From IMG/VR virus record IMGVR_UViG_3300035034_000321, positions 1-30,709 of that record: a stretch of DNA of 30,709 nt; one strand, given 5' to 3'. Below, piece by piece: positions 3,124-30,709 of this stretch. Below the pieces are notes generated by a model. The model did not search any database, was not told the origin of the DNA, and saw nothing but the letters and a program-made list of their open reading frames with translations. Both the position numbers and the translations under genes were made by a program. The stretch comes from a virus. Positions within the stretch are counted from its first letter, which is position 1; each line of letters opens with the position of its first letter.

Positions 3124-4062
3124 ATGTCCTCTATCCAAGAATTTTTTGCACACATTACCAAACACGGGGTCGCGAAAACAAATCGTTTCCGCGTACTTAT
3201 TCCATTGCCACCGGCTCTAAACCAGAAGGTCGCGTCGACCAATCAAGAAACGACTTCAAGTATTTTTGGATCGGATATTCTTAGCCTAGTTCAGACATTT
3301 GTCGGTAGTAGTCCGTCCGATGTTGCTCGCGGGCTGAATCTGATGATCGACAGCACGTCTATTCCCGGCAAGAACATCAGCACGACCGAACTCAAGTACA
3401 ACTCGGACTACCACAAAATCCCGTACTACAACCTGTACGAAGATCAAGATTTTGTGTTTAAGGTCAGTCGCGACATGTATGAGAAGAATATCATTGATTC
3501 TTGGATGGACATGATCATTGACCCTATCACGCACGACCTAGCTTACTATGATGAATACGTGTCAAACGTGACGATAGAACAATTGGATGACGCGGATAAC
3601 GTCGTTTATTCTGTTGTGCTGAAAGACTGCTTTCCGATCTCATGTAACGCTTTGGACGTGAGTCAAGACGCAAGTACGGAGACGCTCAAGCTATCCACTA
3701 CATTTGCATACAAGCGATGGACAAAGCCGGATGAAAATGGGGTGGTTGACACTGGCATTACGTCGCTGTCGCAAACCCCATTTGGGCCGATTATCAACCC
3801 CGTACTAAATAACCCGGCAGTGCAAAAGGGTCTGGAAGTGTTCGAACAAAACACGGGCATAAATCTAGAAGGAGAAGCACTTGCGATCTACAATCAGGTA
3901 AACGAGATTGTTGAAAACACGTCTGGACAATCCATTAACAAAAACGTCGGATTGATCAACGGCATAAAGGTTTCTACTCAAGGTAACGACAGATTAACAA
4001 CAACACAACAACAGGAAGTCATTGACGTTATCGATGACGTACTGTCCAAGTTGGGAGGATAA
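3124..4062 (+). CDS. 54: baseplate tail-tube initiator, gp54-like
   Basis: 312 residues, close to T4 gp54 (about 320). The N-terminus (EFFAHITKHGVAKTNRFRVL) followed by a variable Ser/Gln-rich insert, then SIPGKNISTTELKYNSDYHK, YEDQDFVFKVSRDMYEKNII and SWMDMIIDPITHDLAYYDEY, matches the tube-domain layout shared by gp19, gp48 and gp54. The C-terminal TFAYKRWTKP strand also fits. These proteins cap the baseplate and start tail-tube polymerisation. It follows a perfect late promoter and is directly followed by the gp26-like gene, whose GGAGG site lies within this gene's last codons. A tail-tube or gp48-type role is the main alternative. Confidence 0.6.
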   Translation: MSSIQEFFAHITKHGVAKTNRFRVLIPLPPALNQKVASTNQETTSSIFGSDILSLVQTFVGSSPSDVARGLNLMIDSTSIPGKNISTTELKYNSDYHKIPYYNLYEDQDFVFKVSRDMYEKNIIDSWMDMIIDPITHDLAYYDEYVSNVTIEQLDDADNVVYSVVLKDCFPISCNALDVSQDASTETLKLSTTFAYKRWTKPDENGVVDTGITSLSQTPFGPIINPVLNNPAVQKGLEVFEQNTGINLEGEALAIYNQVNEIVENTSGQSINKNVGLINGIKVSTQGNDRLTTTQQQEVIDVIDDVLSKLGG

Positions 4063-7454: not shown

Positions 7455-7495
7455 AACAATCTCCTGCTTATTAACGTGATCACACCATAAAAGAA

Positions 7496-7521
7496 AACCC
7501 ACGGTTGACATGCCGTGGGTT
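7496..7521 (-). terminator. terminator downstream of nrdA
   Basis: Nine-bp stem AACCCACGG / CCGTGGGTT with an 8-nt loop; on the minus strand it is followed by TTTTCTTTT. It lies a few bases after the nrdA stop at 7527. Confidence 0.85.
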
Positions 7522-7526
7522 TGTTA

Positions 7527-9260: not shown

Positions 9261-10511
9261 TCAATCGAACAAATCGTCTTCGCTGAATGATTGGGTCTTC
9301 TTGGTGTAGTTGACAGAACGCTTGGCAAAGAAGTCCGTATGTGTGGTAGCATTGTTCTGAAGATCGAACCAGCTAGTAATTTCTAGGCTGTATTCGTCCA
9401 CTTCGAATACTGGCAAGAAACCACATTCGATCAGACCTTTATTGAAGCGGTTCTTGATATACTCGATCACGTCATACTTGCGCAGGTAATCGAAATCACC
9501 GTTTTCGAAAATCCATTCGATGATTTCGCGTTCGGCATCGAAAGCTTCGCGCACGAGAGCGTACACGCGATCCTGCAACTCTTCATCAAACCATTCTGGA
9601 TTCTCTTCTCGGATGGTATTGATCAGATCAGCACCAAACATGAAATGAAGCTCTTCCTCCAACGAGGTAGCGGCAACGGCATTACTCATACCCTTGAGAA
9701 CAGCCTTTTCCTTGTTGTAGGTCGAGATGATCAAGAATTGGGAAAACAGGCTCACGTTTTCGATGAAGAGCGAAAACATAAGCAAAGACTCAACGAAGTC
9801 CTCGATATCGCCGCTGACCTTGCCGGCCAGTGCTTTGTTCATGTAGGAAATGCGCTTCTTGATAGCCGGGACTTTCGTCACTTCGTCAAAGTTGTTATTT
9901 AGGCCAAGCTTTTCCAACAGGTGTGAATATGCCTTGGAATGACGAACTTCCGAATCTGCGAAAGTAGCTCCAACTTCCTTGATCTCGGGCTTGGGAATGC
10001 GATCGCCTATCTTACCCCAGAAATCCTTTACCGTGACTTCGACTTGAGAAATTGCTAACATGCAGCGACGAATGGTTTCGCGCTCTGACTCGCTTAGCTC
10101 TACTCTGAAGTCTTGAATGTCACCGCCATAGTTGAACTCTCTGTGGACCCAATAGGAGTTTTGAATCGCTTCCACATAGTTGTTTAGTTCAGGGTATTCG
10201 AATGGCTTGTAAGCAGTACGTGCTCGAAATATGTCGGGCTTGTTTCTGTCTCTGTACGTGATGTACTCTCGTGCGAGGTCGTGCATCTTCATATCCATTA
10301 GCGTGTTCTCGACTAGGATATGAATCTCGTCTACGGTAGGAACGTCCTTATCGGCCTTTTTGAGCTTGGTGGTAACGCGTCTGGCGACTTTCTTGCTTAC
10401 ATCTTCATCTGTCTCTCCTACCTCTTGCATGGCCTTCTCTACGGCCATTCTGATTTTGTCTCTATCGTATTCGACAATGCTGCCGTCTCGTTTTTGTACT
10501 CTCTCGATCAT
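9261..10511 (-). CDS. nrdB: ribonucleotide reductase small subunit with N-terminal ATP-cone
   Basis: Radical-generating subunit of class I reductase, 416 residues from ATG 10511, chosen over an upstream GTG at 10532 because AGAGGA lies just before it. Residues about 2-88 form an ATP-cone (IERVQKRDGSIVEYDRDKI, later MHDLAREYITYRDRNKPD), normally carried by NrdA. The ferritin-like core follows with Glu188-x-x-His191 and Tyr195 in EVRHSKAY (equivalent to E. coli Glu115, His118 and radical Tyr122), Glu251 in FIENVSLF and Glu286-x-x-His289 in EEELHF. The acidic C-terminal tail (SEDDLFD) would dock into NrdA. Sits directly upstream of nrdA. Confidence 0.95.
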   Translation of the reverse strand: MIERVQKRDGSIVEYDRDKIRMAVEKAMQEVGETDEDVSKKVARRVTTKLKKADKDVPTVDEIHILVENTLMDMKMHDLAREYITYRDRNKPDIFRARTAYKPFEYPELNNYVEAIQNSYWVHREFNYGGDIQDFRVELSESERETIRRCMLAISQVEVTVKDFWGKIGDRIPKPEIKEVGATFADSEVRHSKAYSHLLEKLGLNNNFDEVTKVPAIKKRISYMNKALAGKVSGDIEDFVESLLMFSLFIENVSLFSQFLIISTYNKEKAVLKGMSNAVAATSLEEELHFMFGADLINTIREENPEWFDEELQDRVYALVREAFDAEREIIEWIFENGDFDYLRKYDVIEYIKNRFNKGLIECGFLPVFEVDEYSLEITSWFDLQNNATTHTDFFAKRSVNYTKKTQSFSEDDLFD

Positions 10512-14109: not shown

Positions 14110-14691
14110 TCAGTCTTCTTGCTCTTTGTGCTTTTCAATGTACTTGCCAATGAACCCTGTAGGCTCGTGAGCGCTCTCGAATACGAATGTGCGAGAGTGT
14201 TTGCCCTTGTTGCGAAGTCGGGTGTAGTTGTCGGCAACCTTGTTCGGGCTGAACTTACCGATCCCGAAATCCTTTCTGCCGTTCTGGTCGTAGATAGCAA
14301 CATCGCCATCCGACGTTTTGATAAGCGACCCGTCCTGATCGTACTGCTTGGCAAAGTCCGAAATCAGGTCAATAAACTCCTGATCCGAATTTGCGTCTTT
14401 GCCAATGACAAAGATCGAGTCTTCGCTTACGTGCTGCTCGTCATCTTCTCCTTCGTTTTCGATCCAGTAACCGTCAACAAAGAAGTAACCATAGCCCGCA
14501 CGTCTGATCTTAGACGCTAGAGCCTTGTTGCGCTTGACGTTCTGTTTGTAGCTGTAGCTACCACGAAAAGCGGTTAGGATAGCAACCGGATAGTCGCCCT
14601 TCGTGTGCTGCCACACTCGACTAAGTGATTGCTCGTTTACTTGGTCCCCTTGCTCGCTCGCGAACTCGGAGAACGATTTGATATCAGACAT
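14110..14691 (-). CDS. uncharacterised protein, possibly DUF3293-like
   Basis: 193 residues. The pattern AILTAFRGSYSYKQNVKRNK, LASKIRRAGYGYFFVDGYW, EDSIFVIG and later KQYDQDGSLI resembles the DUF3293 layout (a small alpha/beta fold with conserved Asn and a sensing-like 'GQ/DQ' end), but this is from memory of the pattern, not a search. C-terminal FVFESAHEPTGFIGKYIEKH. Biochemical function unknown. GGGGTAAT precedes the start. It follows rnh and ends at a strong terminator. Confidence 0.65.
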   Translation of the reverse strand: MSDIKSFSEFASEQGDQVNEQSLSRVWQHTKGDYPVAILTAFRGSYSYKQNVKRNKALASKIRRAGYGYFFVDGYWIENEGEDDEQHVSEDSIFVIGKDANSDQEFIDLISDFAKQYDQDGSLIKTSDGDVAIYDQNGRKDFGIGKFSPNKVADNYTRLRNKGKHSRTFVFESAHEPTGFIGKYIEKHKEQED

Positions 14692-21795: not shown

Positions 21796-21889
21796 TAAAA
21801 ATGACCGGGCGATGGCCCGGCCAAACGACACCCCAAAGGAGGTTGGGATTTTAGAAATATGCGTAAACAACCGTGTTGTCTCCTGTTTC
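21796..21889 (-). ncRNA. candidate small RNA between promoter and terminator
   Basis: A promoter with a perfect TTGACA fires into about 94 nt that end in a GC-rich hairpin followed by T5, with no convincing ORF in between. The expected transcript could fold CAAC-ACG-GTTG and CCCAA...TTGGG hairpins before the terminator. A purine AGGAG near its start is followed by no ATG. It may be a regulatory RNA or simply the leader of the DsbA-like gene with an attenuator. Confidence 0.35.
21805..21820 (-). terminator. GC-rich terminator or attenuator
   Basis: CCGGGC / GCCCGG with a 4-nt loop; on the minus strand followed by TCATTTTTA. It is upstream of the DsbA-like gene and downstream of a promoter, so it would end a short transcript. 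Confidence 0.65.
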
Positions 21890-22307: not shown

Positions 22308-22336
22308 ATTATACAAAAATTTGGAGGGGCTGTCAG
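22308..22336 (-). promoter_or_regulatory. promoter with -35 in a terminator loop (cassette 1)
   Basis: -35 CTGACA (22331-22336) includes the loop of the hairpin at 22323-22343; 17-bp spacer contains the 3' stem arm and T-run; -10 TATAAT (22308-22313). Confidence 0.8.
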
Positions 22337-23251: not shown

Positions 23252-23280
23252 ATTATAACCAAATTTTGAGAACGTGTCAA
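23252..23280 (-). promoter_or_regulatory. near-perfect sigma70 promoter (cassette 3)
   Basis: -35 TTGACA (23275-23280), 17-bp spacer, -10 TATAAT (23252-23257): full consensus. Its leader matches those of cassettes 1 and 2. No stem-loop is visible around its -35. Confidence 0.9.
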
Positions 23281-23755: not shown

Positions 23756-25132
23756 TTAGTCCCAATCAATTTCGGACGGGTCTTTCTTCTTCGGCAGGCG
23801 CTTACCCACGTCTTGGTTGATATCCTCGACCGTCTTCGCGTCCCCACCGTCGCTAGCATCATAATAGCGCATCTTGTTGAAGTCAATTCCCACGACTTGC
23901 GGCTTGACCTTAGTCTTGTTGCCCCATCGGGTTTTCAACAGATGGAATACCTGTCGATTGTTCTCTTGCAACACTTCGTTAGTCGTGATCGCCATCATGA
24001 AGTCAGCAGTTTGCGGCAGGCCAATAGACTCTGATGTTGCAGTCAGGTCAGGGCTGTCTTCGTTAGCCGCTCCACGGTTGGTCTGTGTAGCGCTAAAGAC
24101 CGGAACCTCAAATTCTACACCAAGACCGCGTAGCTCTTCGGCAATGGCCTTGACATAGGAATAGGAGTTGACGCCAGACATGCTAGTGTAGCGACTTGAT
24201 GCACAGATGTTGACGTAATCCACAAACACAATATCTGCATTGAATTTCTTCTTTTGCTTCAACTCCTTTAGCAAGTGTCGGAAGTGCCCCGCGTGTGCGC
24301 CCGAAGTCGGATACTCCTTGACGAAGAGTTTGCCGTTAGTCTTGCTCTTCAGGTTATCGACCTTGGACATGAACTCGTCTTTGCTCATGTTCTTCAAGTC
24401 GTCGGTTGTCGTGTTGTACAGATTGGCTTCCACGCGCTCGTACACGACTTCTTCGGCCATTTCCATGCTAATGTAAAGCACGTTCTTGCCTTGCTTCATC
24501 AACTCGCCTGCTAGATAGCACATGAGAGAAGACTTGCCCACGTTGGTGAATGCCAAGGCAATGCTCAGGCTTTTCTTCTTTAGCCCACCGTTTGTCAGGC
24601 GTTGAAGCGCAGACAGTGGCAGGGCTAGGCGCTCGTCCTCACTCGTGTACAGGTTGTAGCGTGCTTCCGCATCGTCAAAGAATTCCATGCCGATCGACGT
24701 GTCGAAACTCACGCTCAACGCGCTGTCCAACAGGTCAGGGATAGCATGTTTGTCCATCCCATTTTCATCGCCTTCCAGAATGTTGATAGACGAATAGATC
24801 GCGTTGTAAACTGCCTTGTCCTTGCAGTATTCTTCCGTCTCGTCTATCAGCCAATCTAGGTCAGGCATTTCGTCCTTGCCCTTGCTAGCCTCTTCAACGA
24901 TCTCCACAATATCTTCATACTCGGTGTCACCGATTGGAGATTTTTGAAGACTGATCGCAATCGCTTCTAGATTAGGCGGATTGTTGTACTTGTCATAAAG
25001 ATGCTTGTATGTTTTGAAAAGGGTCTTGTACCCACCATCAAAGAAAGATGCGTCGAGGAACGGGTACACCTTGCGAGAGTATTGTTCTGAAAACAATAGC
25101 CCTTTGAAGATAGATGTTTCGATGTTCTGCAT
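23756..25132 (-). CDS. 41: replicative DNA helicase, T4 gp41 type (DnaB-like)
   Basis: 458 residues from ATG 25132 (AAGG upstream), against 475 in T4. Unwinds DNA at the fork as a hexamer, loaded by gp59. N-terminal helical domain (MQNIETSIFKGLLFSEQYSR), then the RecA-like motor: Walker A AFTNVGKSS with Lys200, ISMEMAEEVVYER (motif H1a-like), Walker B IVFVDY (301-306), and the arginine/glutamine switch region ATQTNRGA. C-terminus acidic. A promoter-terminator composite lies just upstream (25159-25198). Confidence 0.95.
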   Translation of the reverse strand: MQNIETSIFKGLLFSEQYSRKVYPFLDASFFDGGYKTLFKTYKHLYDKYNNPPNLEAIAISLQKSPIGDTEYEDIVEIVEEASKGKDEMPDLDWLIDETEEYCKDKAVYNAIYSSINILEGDENGMDKHAIPDLLDSALSVSFDTSIGMEFFDDAEARYNLYTSEDERLALPLSALQRLTNGGLKKKSLSIALAFTNVGKSSLMCYLAGELMKQGKNVLYISMEMAEEVVYERVEANLYNTTTDDLKNMSKDEFMSKVDNLKSKTNGKLFVKEYPTSGAHAGHFRHLLKELKQKKKFNADIVFVDYVNICASSRYTSMSGVNSYSYVKAIAEELRGLGVEFEVPVFSATQTNRGAANEDSPDLTATSESIGLPQTADFMMAITTNEVLQENNRQVFHLLKTRWGNKTKVKPQVVGIDFNKMRYYDASDGGDAKTVEDINQDVGKRLPKKKDPSEIDWD

Positions 25133-25158
25133 TCGTAATGCCTTGTTAAAAACCTTGA

Positions 25159-25187
25159 ATATTACCAAAAAAGCGAGAGAGCGTCAA
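25159..25187 (-). promoter_or_regulatory. promoter with -35 in a hairpin loop, before gp41
   Basis: -35 TTGACG (25182-25187) in the loop of the hairpin at 25171-25198; 17-bp spacer; -10 TAATAT (25159-25164). Confidence 0.7.
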
Positions 25188-25216: not shown

Positions 25217-26308
25217 CTAGCTAGGTTTCACTTCGCCAGTTTCGGCATCAAGTTCTTCCCCTTCGTTCAGCATTTCGGAAAGATTGTCATCGAACAAACC
25301 ACCGCTGTTGAGCGAGTACAGGTTAGTTACCGCCTTTAGGAAGCTTTCGTCTTTGAGCAACGGTTCCCAAAATGCGCCACAACTGCTTTCCGCCCGTCTC
25401 CAACTCTTGTCATCTTCTACGCTCGGGCGCGTGAACCAGCCTTGCTTGGGTTTCTCCACATGCCCGGTGATCAACGCAATGTCTAGCAGGCCGGAATACT
25501 TGTCGATCCCTTCATCAAATCGGACTTCGAACGGGATAGCAGATTTTTCCTTGATGAACCTAGACTTTTCGGTGTTCATGATGAACGTATGACCGGCCAA
25601 ATCCTTTGCGTCCTTACCCTTGATCTTGCGCCTGCCAATGATGAAAATGTTGTCTGCGCTGTAGATACCGCCTGTACCGCCACCGACTACATCACCACCG
25701 TACATGTCCATCGTCTGGTACACGTGGTTGATCGCAACTAGCGGAATGTCTTTAGTCGCGAGATAGGGTGTGACCATGCGCCACAAAGACTTGAGTTGCT
25801 TCGCCCGGCTCATGTCCGCTACCGACTTCTCGTCCTTGGCGTCATCAATCTCTTTCTTCGACGCGAGGTTACCAACGGAGTCAATGAACACCATTGCGTG
25901 ATCTGCCCGACCGATTTCTTCAAGCTGTTGAATGATATCGAACTTCAGTTCTTCGATATTCTTTACCGGCAAGTGAATAACTCGGTCGGTGTCAATCCCC
26001 ATGCTCTTGAGATAGTCATCGGTAATACCGAACTCCGAATCATAGAAGATTACCAAACCATCTTCGTACTTGCGTTGATACGCGGCACACATCATAAGGC
26101 CAAGCAATGACTTGAATGATTTTGACTTGCCCGCTAGCATGGTCATTCCTGAAGTGAAGCCGCCCATCAGATTTCCAGACATGGCGAGGTTCAGGCTATA
26201 CACGGGTGTGCTGATCATGTCCTTCTCTGACGAGAGAAAGTCTGATCCAGAAAGGACGGACGCGCCCTCAATTTTAGATTTTTTCAAAAGTCTATCAGCT
26301 AGTGACAT
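25217..26308 (-). CDS. uvsX: RecA-like recombinase UvsX
   Basis: 363 residues from ATG 26308 (AAGGGGT before it; the longer open frame upstream is non-coding and overlaps the neighbour). Drives strand exchange and recombination-dependent replication with gp32. Walker A GKSKSFKS at 60-67 (T4 UvsX: GPSKSFKS at the same place), FYDSEFG at 89-95, Walker B MVFIDS (139-144), then VAINHVYQT and GGGTGGIYSADNIFII for DNA binding. C-terminus acidic. T4 UvsX is 391 residues. Confidence 0.95.
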   Translation of the reverse strand: MSLADRLLKKSKIEGASVLSGSDFLSSEKDMISTPVYSLNLAMSGNLMGGFTSGMTMLAGKSKSFKSLLGLMMCAAYQRKYEDGLVIFYDSEFGITDDYLKSMGIDTDRVIHLPVKNIEELKFDIIQQLEEIGRADHAMVFIDSVGNLASKKEIDDAKDEKSVADMSRAKQLKSLWRMVTPYLATKDIPLVAINHVYQTMDMYGGDVVGGGTGGIYSADNIFIIGRRKIKGKDAKDLAGHTFIMNTEKSRFIKEKSAIPFEVRFDEGIDKYSGLLDIALITGHVEKPKQGWFTRPSVEDDKSWRRAESSCGAFWEPLLKDESFLKAVTNLYSLNSGGLFDDNLSEMLNEGEELDAETGEVKPS

Positions 26309-26318
26309 TCGATACCCC

Positions 26319-26873
26319 TTAGTGAATTGTGTTCGTCGTGTGGTTGAGCACATCGCTAAAATTGCCAAACCCATTCTCTTCGAATGTTTTGACCATAAGC
26401 TCCATAACCTGTCTGTAATACAGCAGGCCAGACGAATCCATAAAGTCATACAGGGCGTCGATCTTGTCACTTAGCTCGCGATTCTCGGTCACGATCTCTG
26501 CCAAGACGTGATCGACAATATCAAGTCGTTCCTCGGCAGAGTAGTATTTCTGATCGACAAGGTAGGAGAACGCTTCATCAACGTTCTTGTTTTCAATCGA
26601 CACATCGTAGATAGGTTCTATGTCTTCGAACCCCTCTACCGGGATGGTCTTGTGTTCAATCAAATCCTTGATGTGCTGTTTAAGTTCGGCTGATTCGTCT
26701 TGCTCGTAGTCGATATAGTATACCGGGAGCTTGCAGTAGTAGAACGAATCTTCGACGTATTGTACATGAACGTCTTTGTTTGTCAAGCCGGTTACAAATT
26801 CTTTGAATCTTCCGTTGACGTACTCTAGTTCGTCATCGATACTGACCTTGATGTTAAGTCTTGTTGTGGTCAT
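26319..26873 (-). CDS. uncharacterised acidic protein between UvsX and polymerase
   Basis: 184 residues, acidic and helical (MTTTRLNIKVSIDDELEYVN, YYCKLPVYYIDYEQDESAEL, AEERLDIVDHVLAEIVTENR). No membrane or signal segment and no motif I know. Placed 10 bp upstream of uvsX and downstream of gp43, so it is probably expressed with replication genes. AGGGAG lies further upstream of the ATG than usual (about 15 nt), perhaps limiting its level. Confidence 0.68.
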   Translation of the reverse strand: MTTTRLNIKVSIDDELEYVNGRFKEFVTGLTNKDVHVQYVEDSFYYCKLPVYYIDYEQDESAELKQHIKDLIEHKTIPVEGFEDIEPIYDVSIENKNVDEAFSYLVDQKYYSAEERLDIVDHVLAEIVTENRELSDKIDALYDFMDSSGLLYYRQVMELMVKTFEENGFGNFSDVLNHTTNTIH

Positions 26874-26938: not shown

Positions 26939-29524
26939 CTAGAACAGTGTGTTGACCTCTTCTCGGTGCCATCCAACCGCGTCTATAAAGATTTGCAACG
27001 GCTGCACAAACGCTTTTTCAAACATCAGGTCATAATTTACGTAAGGCTCTAGCTCAAATTCCTTCGGCATGAACGTGTCAAAGGCCACCACCGTATTTCT
27101 AGTCGGGTTGGGCATGTTTAGCTCCACGTACTTGATCTTGTCGCCGCTCACGATCTTGGGCACGCGTTTAGCACCAACGTCGTCCACCATTTTGTTATGT
27201 ATGATGGACGCCTTGACATGCATGGGCGTACCGCTCTTGTACAGGTTGATATCGTGTTCCCATTTCTCGATATCGTTTACGTTCTTAACCAGTGCAATGT
27301 CATTTACGTTCAGGCCGTAAAAATACTTTTCGGTATCACTCACGATCTGATGTACGTCGCTTTCCTCGCCTGTAAGCGCTGCCGTATAGCAAGAGACAAG
27401 CGCTTCTTTACTGAAGTCTGGCATACCACCCTTGACTGACTCCATACCCATGATCTTGATCTTGGGTTCTTCCGGCTTGTATCTCGTTCCTTCGTTGTCC
27501 AGTACCGCCATGACGTACTTTTTCTTAGCCACGAAAACAGCACGCTTGGCAATGGTTTCGCGCTCCCAAATCATCTTCTGCTCATACGCACGCGTGTAGT
27601 CGCTCAAGTGCTGGCATCTGTCCACGATCTCGGGCGACACCACCTCTTCACAGAACTGGTCGCACATGTCAACTGCTTGCGTGTCGGTAATGTCGGACGG
27701 CAGGCTCTTAACGAATTTGTCGATTGTGAAATAGCCGCTATCCGTGTCACTGTATACCCACGTGTCGTCATCGGTTGATAACACGCGCTTCATGAATTCG
27801 TTGACATGTGAGCACGTCCACTTGTTCACAAGCTGACCCGTAAGCGTAATTGCTTCTGCGTTCTCGACCTTATAGTACAGGAAGTATTTGTTGCCTAGCG
27901 CACCGTAGCCGCCGTTGAGCAAGATTTTCAGCCCCATTTGCATGTTGTTGCTCTTGGACTTCATATCCCCGTACTTGCGCTTTTCCTCCGGCGTTTGCGC
28001 GTCAACAATATGCTGCTCGGCCTCAAGCATCTTCTTTTTGAAAACCTTGCGCTGTACGTATAGCTCACGCTTGATCTCGGAGAAGAACGACATGCGATCC
28101 TTGCGATAGAATTCGAAGTTGGCCGTCATGGTAAGACCATACTTGTCCAACGGGCTTAGATCGATGTTCTCGTTTAGCAGGTCGGTAAACGTGTGGTCTT
28201 CCTTGATCTTCAATAGCTCTGGTGGCAATTTGTCTTCGGACACAAGCGTTTCCGGCCCGATGTTGTACTGCATTTCAATATGCGGATACAATGACGCGAG
28301 GTCGAAACTCACAATCCAATCATAGAATCCGGGCGCGGGTTGCTTGACGAACGCACCTTCAAACTCTCGGTCTTCCGTGATTTCCTCGCGCTTGGACAAA
28401 GGCGCGACTCCCTTAGTGAACAGGAATTTGGCAACCAGTTGTTCCCAAATCTTTACCGTACCCATCGTGTCTTCATAGTTGGACATGGAATAGTAGGCAA
28501 GCGCGTATGTCAGGTCAAACAGACCAAGCTTCTTTTCCAGACGGACGATCAGATTAACGTCCTGAATGTTGTAGTCGTTGAATAGCTGGTAGTTTTCTTT
28601 CCATAGCTCGAATAGATTGCCATACTGTTCGTAGTCAAGCTTTTTCTCGCCTAGTTCCACGTGCGCGATATAGTCTAGCTTGAAACTCGCTCTAGGTTCG
28701 AACGTATGCTTTTTGTAAAGCTCCATGTAGTCAAGGTGCGGCATACCAAAGATATCGACCTTCGTCTGCATCTTGCCGTAATTACCCTTCACTTCTCGGA
28801 ACGAAATCTTGCCGAACGGAGACAGCATCTTGTTGGTCAGCTTCTTGCCGATCTGCGAATAGCATCGGGTCACGATATAGACCATATCGAATTGTTCGGA
28901 GTTCCACCCTGTTGTCAGGTCATAGTCATGATCCTTGAAGTGGTGGAGCATGGCGATAAGCAAATCTTTCTCGTCTTCAAAATGGTAGAACTCAGTATCA
29001 AGCTCTTGCACCTCTTCAGGTGACAGGTTCTTATGCCATTTGTCTTCGCCCTTGTACTTCAGGCTATACGTGTAGAAGCGCTCTTCAACAGAATCGTAAA
29101 AGGTCACGCCGTTAATCGGGTGTCTAGCCTCGACAGGTTCAGGGAATCCATCATCAGAATAGACCTCGATATCCAAGTAACCTACCCGGATTTGTTTCTC
29201 GTCATAATCCGGTTCCTTGCCTTCGAACAGGTCGATGATGAACTGGTTGGCGAAGTTGGTGTTACCGTGGATTGACATGCCGTCTACGTCGGCATACATG
29301 TCTACAAAGCTTCGCGCATCTTTGATAGTGTCGAATGGCACACGCTTTAGCGGATTTCCATAGATTGAAAACGCGTCAACCTCGTCGTCGTCCTGTCCTT
29401 CGATTTGAGTGAATAGGTAGGGTTCGTAGAAGTCAACAACCTTTGTTTCGGTGTTGGCATCCTTTCCGTTCTTGTATCGGAACAGGATTTTGTTACCCCA
29501 CGTCTTGTAATAGGTGTAGAACAA
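26939..29524 (-). CDS. 43: family B DNA polymerase, T4 gp43 type
   Basis: 861 residues (T4: 898); polymerase and 3'-5' proofreading exonuclease. Exo I Asp118-Glu120 in YLDIEVY, Exo II Asp213 in SEQFDMVY, Exo III Asp322 in YNIQDVNL; polymerase motif A Asp408 in DLASLYPHI, motif B around NGGYGALGN (537-545), motif C YSDTDS with Asp593 and Asp595. The start is TTG at 29524 with AGGAG six nt upstream and no ATG in range. C-terminal NTLF may bind the sliding clamp. The short upstream leader is fed by a terminator-loop promoter at 29555-29582. Confidence 0.97.
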   Translation of the reverse strand: MFYTYYKTWGNKILFRYKNGKDANTETKVVDFYEPYLFTQIEGQDDDEVDAFSIYGNPLKRVPFDTIKDARSFVDMYADVDGMSIHGNTNFANQFIIDLFEGKEPDYDEKQIRVGYLDIEVYSDDGFPEPVEARHPINGVTFYDSVEERFYTYSLKYKGEDKWHKNLSPEEVQELDTEFYHFEDEKDLLIAMLHHFKDHDYDLTTGWNSEQFDMVYIVTRCYSQIGKKLTNKMLSPFGKISFREVKGNYGKMQTKVDIFGMPHLDYMELYKKHTFEPRASFKLDYIAHVELGEKKLDYEQYGNLFELWKENYQLFNDYNIQDVNLIVRLEKKLGLFDLTYALAYYSMSNYEDTMGTVKIWEQLVAKFLFTKGVAPLSKREEITEDREFEGAFVKQPAPGFYDWIVSFDLASLYPHIEMQYNIGPETLVSEDKLPPELLKIKEDHTFTDLLNENIDLSPLDKYGLTMTANFEFYRKDRMSFFSEIKRELYVQRKVFKKKMLEAEQHIVDAQTPEEKRKYGDMKSKSNNMQMGLKILLNGGYGALGNKYFLYYKVENAEAITLTGQLVNKWTCSHVNEFMKRVLSTDDDTWVYSDTDSGYFTIDKFVKSLPSDITDTQAVDMCDQFCEEVVSPEIVDRCQHLSDYTRAYEQKMIWERETIAKRAVFVAKKKYVMAVLDNEGTRYKPEEPKIKIMGMESVKGGMPDFSKEALVSCYTAALTGEESDVHQIVSDTEKYFYGLNVNDIALVKNVNDIEKWEHDINLYKSGTPMHVKASIIHNKMVDDVGAKRVPKIVSGDKIKYVELNMPNPTRNTVVAFDTFMPKEFELEPYVNYDLMFEKAFVQPLQIFIDAVGWHREEVNTLF

Positions 29525-29554: not shown

Positions 29555-29582
29555 ATATTACCAAAGTTGCTGAGCCTGTCAA
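29555..29582 (-). promoter_or_regulatory. promoter with -35 in a terminator loop, before gp43
   Basis: TTGACA (29577-29582) is exactly the loop of the hairpin 29567-29592; 16-bp spacer; -10 TAATAT (29555-29560). Confidence 0.65.
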
Positions 29583-29592
29583 GGCTCAGCAA
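29567..29592 (-). terminator. terminator at the end of the MazG-like gene
   Basis: TTGCTGAGCC / GGCTCAGCAA perfect 10-bp stem, 6-nt loop. The stop codon and last codons of the MazG-like gene are within the 5' arm. Confidence 0.8.
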
Positions 29593-30202
29593 AGGTAGTC
29601 GGTTTGAGAAGCTTACCTTCTCCGTCATTACCGCGAAGCAGGTACACCGTCTCTTTATTCAGTTCGCGCACGACTACGGCAATATTTCCAAACTTGTTGC
29701 CATACTTCTCTCTAGCGTGTGCAAGCTCTCGCTCTTCAGCCCACATCACGCTAGGGACAAACTTTGAGTCATTGCTGTCTAGCACGCGCAACATATAGCT
29801 TTCGACCGCGCTCAACCCATATTGTTTGACCGCCCAGATAAGCAACAACTGGATATCAAAGTGGTGCGGAACCGAATTTGATGAAAACGCTTCAACGCAT
29901 TTGAGAAGCGTGTGTACGTCCAGCGGATGACATTCATCGATTCTCGTGTCTGCGGTTAGCGCATACGGGAATAGCATGTAGTTGAGATAGGATGCGGTTA
30001 CAAACACGTCGCACACGCCGTCAAGGATTTCTCTATCGTCTCGGTCCTTAATGGCATCACGCGTTTCTTCGATTTCGCTAATAACCAAAGAACGCTGTAG
30101 TTCAATGTCTTGTTGACCTACTGCAGCGTTCCATACTACAGCGTTCCAGTCGATTACTCGGTTTAGGCATTCCCCGTACATGGGGAAACTGATTTCTTGC
30201 AT
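29579..30202 (-). CDS. MazG-like nucleotide pyrophosphohydrolase
   Basis: 207 residues. The metal-binding pattern of MazG/dUTPase-like all-alpha NTP pyrophosphatases is present: SEIEETRDAI followed by EILDGVCDVFVTA (ExxE ... E/DxxD). The second half ends with a beta segment KFGNIAVVVRELNKETVYLL and KLLKPTTFAEP, typical of phage MazG proteins. Such enzymes split dNTPs or (p)ppGpp-related nucleotides to monophosphates. Next to a (p)ppGpp-hydrolase-like gene, 10 bp apart. Confidence 0.82.
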   Translation of the reverse strand: MQEISFPMYGECLNRVIDWNAVVWNAAVGQQDIELQRSLVISEIEETRDAIKDRDDREILDGVCDVFVTASYLNYMLFPYALTADTRIDECHPLDVHTLLKCVEAFSSNSVPHHFDIQLLLIWAVKQYGLSAVESYMLRVLDSNDSKFVPSVMWAEERELAHAREKYGNKFGNIAVVVRELNKETVYLLRGNDGEGKLLKPTTFAEP

Positions 30203-30656: not shown

Positions 30657-30682
30657 TGGCACTCCTTTCTGACTCAGGTTAT

Positions 30683-30709
30683 ATAATACCAAAAAAGAAG
30701 GGGCTTGCA
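30683..30709 (-). promoter_or_regulatory. promoter of the hydrolase gene, cut by the window edge
   Basis: -10 TATTAT (30683-30688) after a T6 run and half of a hairpin (GCAAGCCCCTTC). With a 16-bp spacer the -35 would be xTGCAA, running one base off the window. It looks like another terminator-promoter composite. Confidence 0.5.

Follow-up and report, generated by a model that had tools for sequence, protein, structure and literature searches.

Predicted terminator hairpins with a promoter -35 hexamer at the loop recur at gene borders of a T4-like phage fragment and in unrelated phages

The window analyzed here, that is, the whole 30.7 kb stretch of a virus record, belongs to an uncultured T4-like phage and covers a fragment of its genome. 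Among named phages, Pseudomonas phage pf16 is the closest relative (46% identity in DNA polymerase), and a DNA-level search of the window against phage records returned no match. Another record, IMGVR_UViG_3300038652_000039 (contigs L001 and L002), is 99.0-99.7% identical to the window across 12 kb. The minus strand carries T4-type replication genes, namely, those for DNA polymerase, a UvsX-like recombinase and a DnaB/gp41-like helicase, along with genes for single-strand binding protein, helicase loader, ligase and ribonucleotide reductase, and the tail genes are on the plus strand. An ORF at 14110-14691 on the minus strand matches the Pfam family S-AdoMet_lyase (1.7e-10), a type of anti-restriction enzyme known from phage T3, and a MazG-like ORF contains a 15-bp tandem duplication at 30123-30137 of the window that is single in L002.

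The earlier note on this DNA had claimed that one compact layout recurs at five minus-strand positions, and we found the composite element at all five: a strong hairpin tailed by a T-rich stretch, with a hexamer resembling TTGACA located at the loop and, 16-18 nt beyond it, a -10 box. A sixth site had been suspected at the right edge, where only the 3' part lies within the window; it is completed by the 99%-identical contig L002, in which the whole element (196-239) reads AGAGAAGGGGC-TTGCAA-GCCCCTTCTTT-TTTTGG-TATTAT with a spacer of 17. At five or six gene borders, then, about 36 bases combine the putative stop signal of one gene with the putative start signal of the next. The composites and the replication genes beside them are as follows:

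30678..30709, minus strand: TGCAAGCCCCTTCTTTTTTGG-TATTAT, the 3' part of composite 6, which the window edge truncates
29592-29555, minus strand: composite 1, TTGCTGAGCC-TTGACA-GGCTCAGCAA-CTTTGG-TAATAT, spacer 16, -18.0 kcal/mol; hairpin 29592-29567, -35 at 29582-29577 in the loop, extended -10 TGG-TAATAT ending at 29555
26939..29524, minus strand: DNA polymerase (phrog_262), proposed to be driven by composite 1
25217..26470, minus strand: UvsX-like recombinase (RecA, T4_UVSX_C), proposed to be closed by composite 2
25198-25159, minus strand: composite 2, AAGCGAGGGGG-TTGACG-CTCTCTCGCTT-TTTTGG-TAATAT, spacer 17, -17.0 kcal/mol; hairpin 25198-25171, -35 TTGACG in the loop (25187), TGG-TAATAT
23756..25168, minus strand: DnaB/gp41-like helicase, proposed to be driven by composite 2
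22978-22941, minus strand: composite 3, AAAAGGGGCTTGCTAAAGTAAGCCCCTTTT-GT-TATACT, spacer 17, -19.5 kcal/mol; hairpin 22978-22949, -35 TTGCTA made of the end of the 5' arm and the loop (22969)
22343-22308, minus strand: composite 4, GGAGGGGCTGACAGCCCCTCC-AAATTTTTG-TATAAT, spacer 17, -17.3 kcal/mol; hairpin 22343-22323, -35 CTGACA (22336), -10 TATAAT
14085-14046, minus strand: composite 5, AAAAGGGGTGTTGACAGCACCCCTTTT-CTTATGG-TAATAT, spacer 18, -15.7 kcal/mol; hairpin 14085-14059, -35 TTGACA in the loop (14075), TGG-TAATAT

The hairpin energies of the five complete composites range from -15.7 to -19.5 kcal/mol, and all five sites have the sequence hallmarks of an intrinsic terminator, with a U-rich tract coming after a stable, GC-rich hairpin; this tract is weak at 29555-29592, where composite 1 has the poorest T-run (CTTTGG) and falls short of five T in eight bases. 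The promoter hexamers match the sigma-70 consensus in 9-11 of 12 positions at all five sites and are 16-18 bp apart. In N4-type hairpin promoters, a virion RNA polymerase reads a hairpin of single-stranded DNA; at the window sites, the match to the sigma-70 hexamers is in the double-stranded form. The -35 begins 1-4 nt ahead of the loop and the -10 box 2-9 nt past the stem, with the extended -10 TGG-TAATAT common to three sites and TGG-TATTAT present at the edge site. Upstream stop codons and stems are separated by 25 nt at most, with the first stem overlapping its stop codon, and a Shine-Dalgarno sequence and a start codon follow about 30 nt past the -10 at 29555, 22941 and 22308. Composite 1 is located upstream of the DNA polymerase gene, and composite 2, identical in L001 (3212-3251), between the genes for the UvsX-like recombinase and the DnaB/gp41-like helicase, the true start of which is probably downstream of the called TTG. 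Composite 3, also identical in L001 (5432-5469), and composite 4 begin, respectively, 3 and 4 nt past the upstream stop codon, each followed by AAGGAG (the Shine-Dalgarno sequence) and ATG, and composite 5 comes after the SAM-lyase-like ORF.

Judging from the sequence, each of these sites very probably is an intrinsic terminator, read in RNA, overlaid on a sigma-70 promoter, read in DNA, so that the border between the two genes would be bifunctional. As part of the upstream gene's transcript, the inverted repeat would fold and, with the T-run, end transcription. In double-stranded DNA, the same bases would constitute the sigma-70 promoter of the next gene, the loop providing the -35 and the 3' arm plus T-run the 16-18 bp spacer, followed by the -10, often as extended TGG-TAATAT. 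One stretch would be able to do both because the hairpin acts only in RNA and the promoter only in double-stranded DNA and, since the predicted start lies just past the terminator, the leader of the new transcript would be free of the hairpin. With the promoter overlaid on the terminator, about 50-70 bp are enough to hold the stop, the start and the ribosome-binding site. The layout probably evolves time and again, with unrelated stems, because selection favors genes that are compact, insulated and each promoted on its own. We infer from these sequence features that the two activities both operate in this phage, and likewise when they do. Annotation tools treat promoters and terminators separately, and such dual use can be missed; the composites may also be of use as compact parts for synthetic operons.

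By rule-of-thumb estimates, RNA release at the composites is predicted in or beside the -10 box, 7-14 nt ahead of the predicted start, which is about as close as possible. An extension of the bifunctional-border reading is that polymerase would stay on the DNA after releasing the RNA and restart at the nested promoter, coupling the neighboring genes. Such a hand-off is physically plausible given single-molecule work in which polymerase usually remains on the DNA after intrinsic termination and can reinitiate at nearby promoters (PMC6978380, PMC6978322). However, restarts are reported mostly in the reverse direction (PMC6978322), and the promoter would also lie under a terminating polymerase, which could block it; occlusion is equally plausible. 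On balance, we consider polymerase hand-off at these sites possible but rather unlikely, and the broader proposition, that the nested layout would be a convergent, largely phage-specific device coupling adjacent genes by polymerase recycling instead of readthrough, seems to us just as doubtful. With a promoter located at the expected site of RNA release by the terminating polymerase, the composites are natural test objects for both polymerase recycling and promoter occlusion.

The overlay of terminator and promoter is seen again at the DNA polymerase border in pf16 and its relatives. The composite at this border is GCTGAGCC-TTGACA-GGCTCAGC...TAATAT in the window (TTGACA-16-TAATAT), AGCCGCTGTA-TTAGCACTT-TACAGCGGCT...TAGTAT in pf16 (TTTACA-17-TAGTAT), and GTCGCTGTAA-GCCCT-TTACAGCGAC...TAGTAT (TTTACA-18-TAGTAT) in L125, L126, L127 and L129, four metagenomic relatives within the pf16 clade. 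The layout is the same while the stem in the window is unrelated to those of pf16 and the four contigs, in a comparison that was not blind because the border was found by direct inspection after the automatic detector had given no clear composite in L125-L129 at T >= 5. Another contig, L124, has no composite at the DNA polymerase border and one elsewhere, at 3160-3198. At about 9930-9980, at its polymerase border, L124 has a possible attenuator, a hairpin resembling a terminator, with TTTT, immediately ahead of the ribosome-binding site. Two hairpins of pf16 (L003), near 33139 and 36037, with TTGACA and TTGACT in the 5' arm, were not counted as composites, the first being without a T-run on that strand. 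In L001, compared to the window, a base change at 22336 turns CTGACA into TTGACA and a G-C stem pair into G-U, which brings the promoter closer to consensus, with the hairpin still predicted to form.

Applying one detector with a positional null to named phages, we observed nested composites above the null in the Enterococcus phages VD13 (7 vs 0.24) and 9181 (4 vs 0.27) and in the Staphylococcus phages 6ec (4 vs 0.75) and K (9 vs 1.9), and not above it in T4 (0 vs 1.0), RB49 (1 vs 1.2) and Syn9 (0 vs 0.8). The composites of VD13, 9181, 6ec and K resemble those of the window in having the -35 at the terminator loop and the -10 at 16-18 nt, but these phages belong to unrelated lineages with other hosts, and the VD13 stems are similar to one another. 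T4 and Syn9 have the same two parts, ordinary intrinsic terminators and sigma-70 promoters, but nest them no more often than expected by chance. In phage K, where transcription ends at 43 annotated terminators (PMC9241854), two of the nested hairpins coincide with terminators annotated by the depositors; its nested composites include those near 32921, 129226, 136385 and 137365 of NC_005880. The view of the earlier note, that stems differing in sequence point to a shared architecture rather than to copying, is thus supported both by the orthologous borders of the pf16 relatives and by recurrence in unrelated phages.

Composite promoter-terminators are already known from T4-like phages, in which they were described in 2010 and 2014 as PeSLs, promoter-early stem-loops (cited in PMC4503421 and PMC3950731). 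Going by these citing papers, PeSLs and the window composites are alike in pairing, at T4-like phage gene borders, a host-type promoter and a stem-loop terminator, whereas the window differs in that its stems are unrepeated and no shuffling is seen at the sites in comparison with one close relative. RB49 has its elements in tandem, hairpin first and promoter after it (12 such cases, compared to 0 in the window), whereas in the window the -35 is at the loop. Because both this tandem geometry and near-identical repeated copies giving homology are absent, we do not file the window composites as PeSLs in the strict sense. At 43031, 33335 and 25338 on the minus strand of RB49 (L378), the promoter spacer is itself an inverted repeat, for example, TTGACA GGGGATCGGTGATCCCC TATACT, a third way to combine hairpin and promoter, without a T-run.

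KVP40 carries four near-identical arm-nested elements, AAAGGGTTGACNNNNGTCAGCCCTTT...TATTAT. Like those of the window, they have the -35 nested in the terminator hairpin, the -10 at 17-18 nt and a T-run in the spacer; unlike in the window, TTGAC is in the stem, paired with GTCAG, and not in the loop, and the copies within the genome are near-identical. The arm-nested cassette GGGTTGACNNNNGTCAGCCCTTT is present in many copies in each of several genomes of jumbo phages (among L491-L563, for example, in contigs of 345-378 kb), with the -10 nearly always at 17-18 nt. The novelty implied by the earlier note accordingly stands in part: judging by the papers that cite the PeSL work, published composites and the arm-nested elements of KVP40 precede it, and the loop-nested -35 with unique stems is what differs, although the nested geometry may be in the original papers as well. 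In the literature searched, where the PeSL work is represented by citing papers, no description of a -35 in a terminator loop was found, which is weak evidence of absence, and promoters and terminators go unmentioned in the RaK2 genome paper.

The studies of Arbiol in 2010 and Comeau in 2014 are said to have dealt with RB49/phi1 and KVP40/nt-1, for which gene shuffling via PeSL copies was reportedly observed. By analogy, the window composites could be copies of one mobile element, spread by recombination and mediating gene shuffling, and the same functional parts are indeed found in related phages, with the four KVP40 copies and a -10 at 16-18 nt in 87 of the 91 distinct viral sites of the KVP40-type cassette. 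We regard this origin as improbable for the window, where the stems are not copies of one another, several composites flank core replication genes, and the sequence is collinear with L001/L002, the single close relative, across the composites, with no gene gain or loss there.

The fusion of terminator and promoter was further surveyed in IMG/VR, which was searched by hairpin alone, with the -10 not used in selection; counts are of sites after removal of identical sequences, and related phages still add related sites. Among the 120 matches listed for the first pattern, GGGG(N0-2)TTGACA(N0-2)CCCC, a -10 (>=5/6) was found at spacing 17 in 45, compared to 0-7 at other spacings (8-35 nt), and a T-run accompanied 44/72 of the listed hairpins with a -10 vs 16/48 of those without. 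For the second pattern, GGGG(N0-1)TTGACA(N0-1)CCCCTTTT, with the -10 defined as at least 5 of 6 at 16-18 nt, 42 of the 56 distinct viral sites had a -10, compared to 3/27 distinct sites for the loop-reversed control of the same composition, GGGG(N0-1)TGTCAA(N0-1)CCCCTTTT. In 257 Gb of bacterial and archaeal genomes, the second pattern occurred at 20 sites only, 3 of them with a -10. Thus, a viral T-run hairpin with a TTGACA loop usually has a well-placed -10, and it is in viruses that this combination is concentrated. The results indicate that one stop/start fusion has been reached again and again by phages of unrelated lineages, at a density unmatched in bacterial genomes for the pattern tested. 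The association of TTGACA loops with a -10 box 16-18 nt on, which the earlier note had suggested looking for in other phage genomes, holds against controls. The promoter motif alone does not imply nesting, given that only 4/120 TTGACA...TGGTAATAT promoters have a strong loop hairpin (3.3%, vs 1.2% in shuffled flanks). Likewise, a TTGACA loop without a T-run means little, as the short hairpin of site 1, GAGCC-TTGACA-GGCTC, is followed by a -10 in only 4/22 distinct sites in other viral contigs.

Among the listed matches of the first pattern, a T-run is missing from 28 of the 72 hairpins that have a -10, so that some similar inverted repeats are not terminators, and these would suit an operator, with a protein binding the inverted repeat around the -35 to regulate a plain promoter and any termination being incidental. 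An operator is an improbable explanation of the window sites: the stems differ at every site, unlike an operator, and are unrelated at the orthologous border, a T-rich stretch follows on the transcribed side, and the hairpins are located at, or 3-25 nt past, upstream stop codons.

Within the window, the co-occurrence of terminator and promoter is non-random, as the earlier note had held. With cut-offs of E <= -12 and a minimum of 4 T in 8 bases, counts for the window were 26 terminators and 5 composites, compared to means of 4.3 and 0.02 in 150 dinucleotide shuffles (maximum of 1 composite in 150), so that equal co-occurrence in shuffled sequence was not found; sliding the loop window by 60-400 nt in the real sequence gave 0.09 expected vs 4 found at a stricter T-run setting. 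Ordinary terminators and promoters, both common in phages, could overlap by chance when crowded into short gaps, but this explanation, refuted at the level of sequence statistics by the shuffles, the 17-nt spacing peak among the matches listed and the reversed-loop control, retains next to no probability.

The outstanding feature is the nesting rather than promoter-like matches alone, for which the scan gave a modest enrichment in the right half (29 vs 16.9 +/- 3.3) and 25 vs 21.8 +/- 5.0 in the left half. Several strong promoters of the window have no hairpin, for example, that at 23280 (12/12). Nesting is frequent, not universal, since the early-region terminators at 21823, 21487, 17391, 10573 and 7522 are not composites. 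The last of these, at 7495-7522, is a bidirectional terminator between convergent genes, with TTGACA at the plus-strand loop and without a well-placed -10 box. The terminator at 21487-21456 on the minus strand has the loop ACTTAG, which is CTAAGT in the 99.7%-identical L001 (6926-6951) and thus inverted between the two close relatives, and its tail reads TTTGGTAAATAAG, which recalls a T4-type late promoter.
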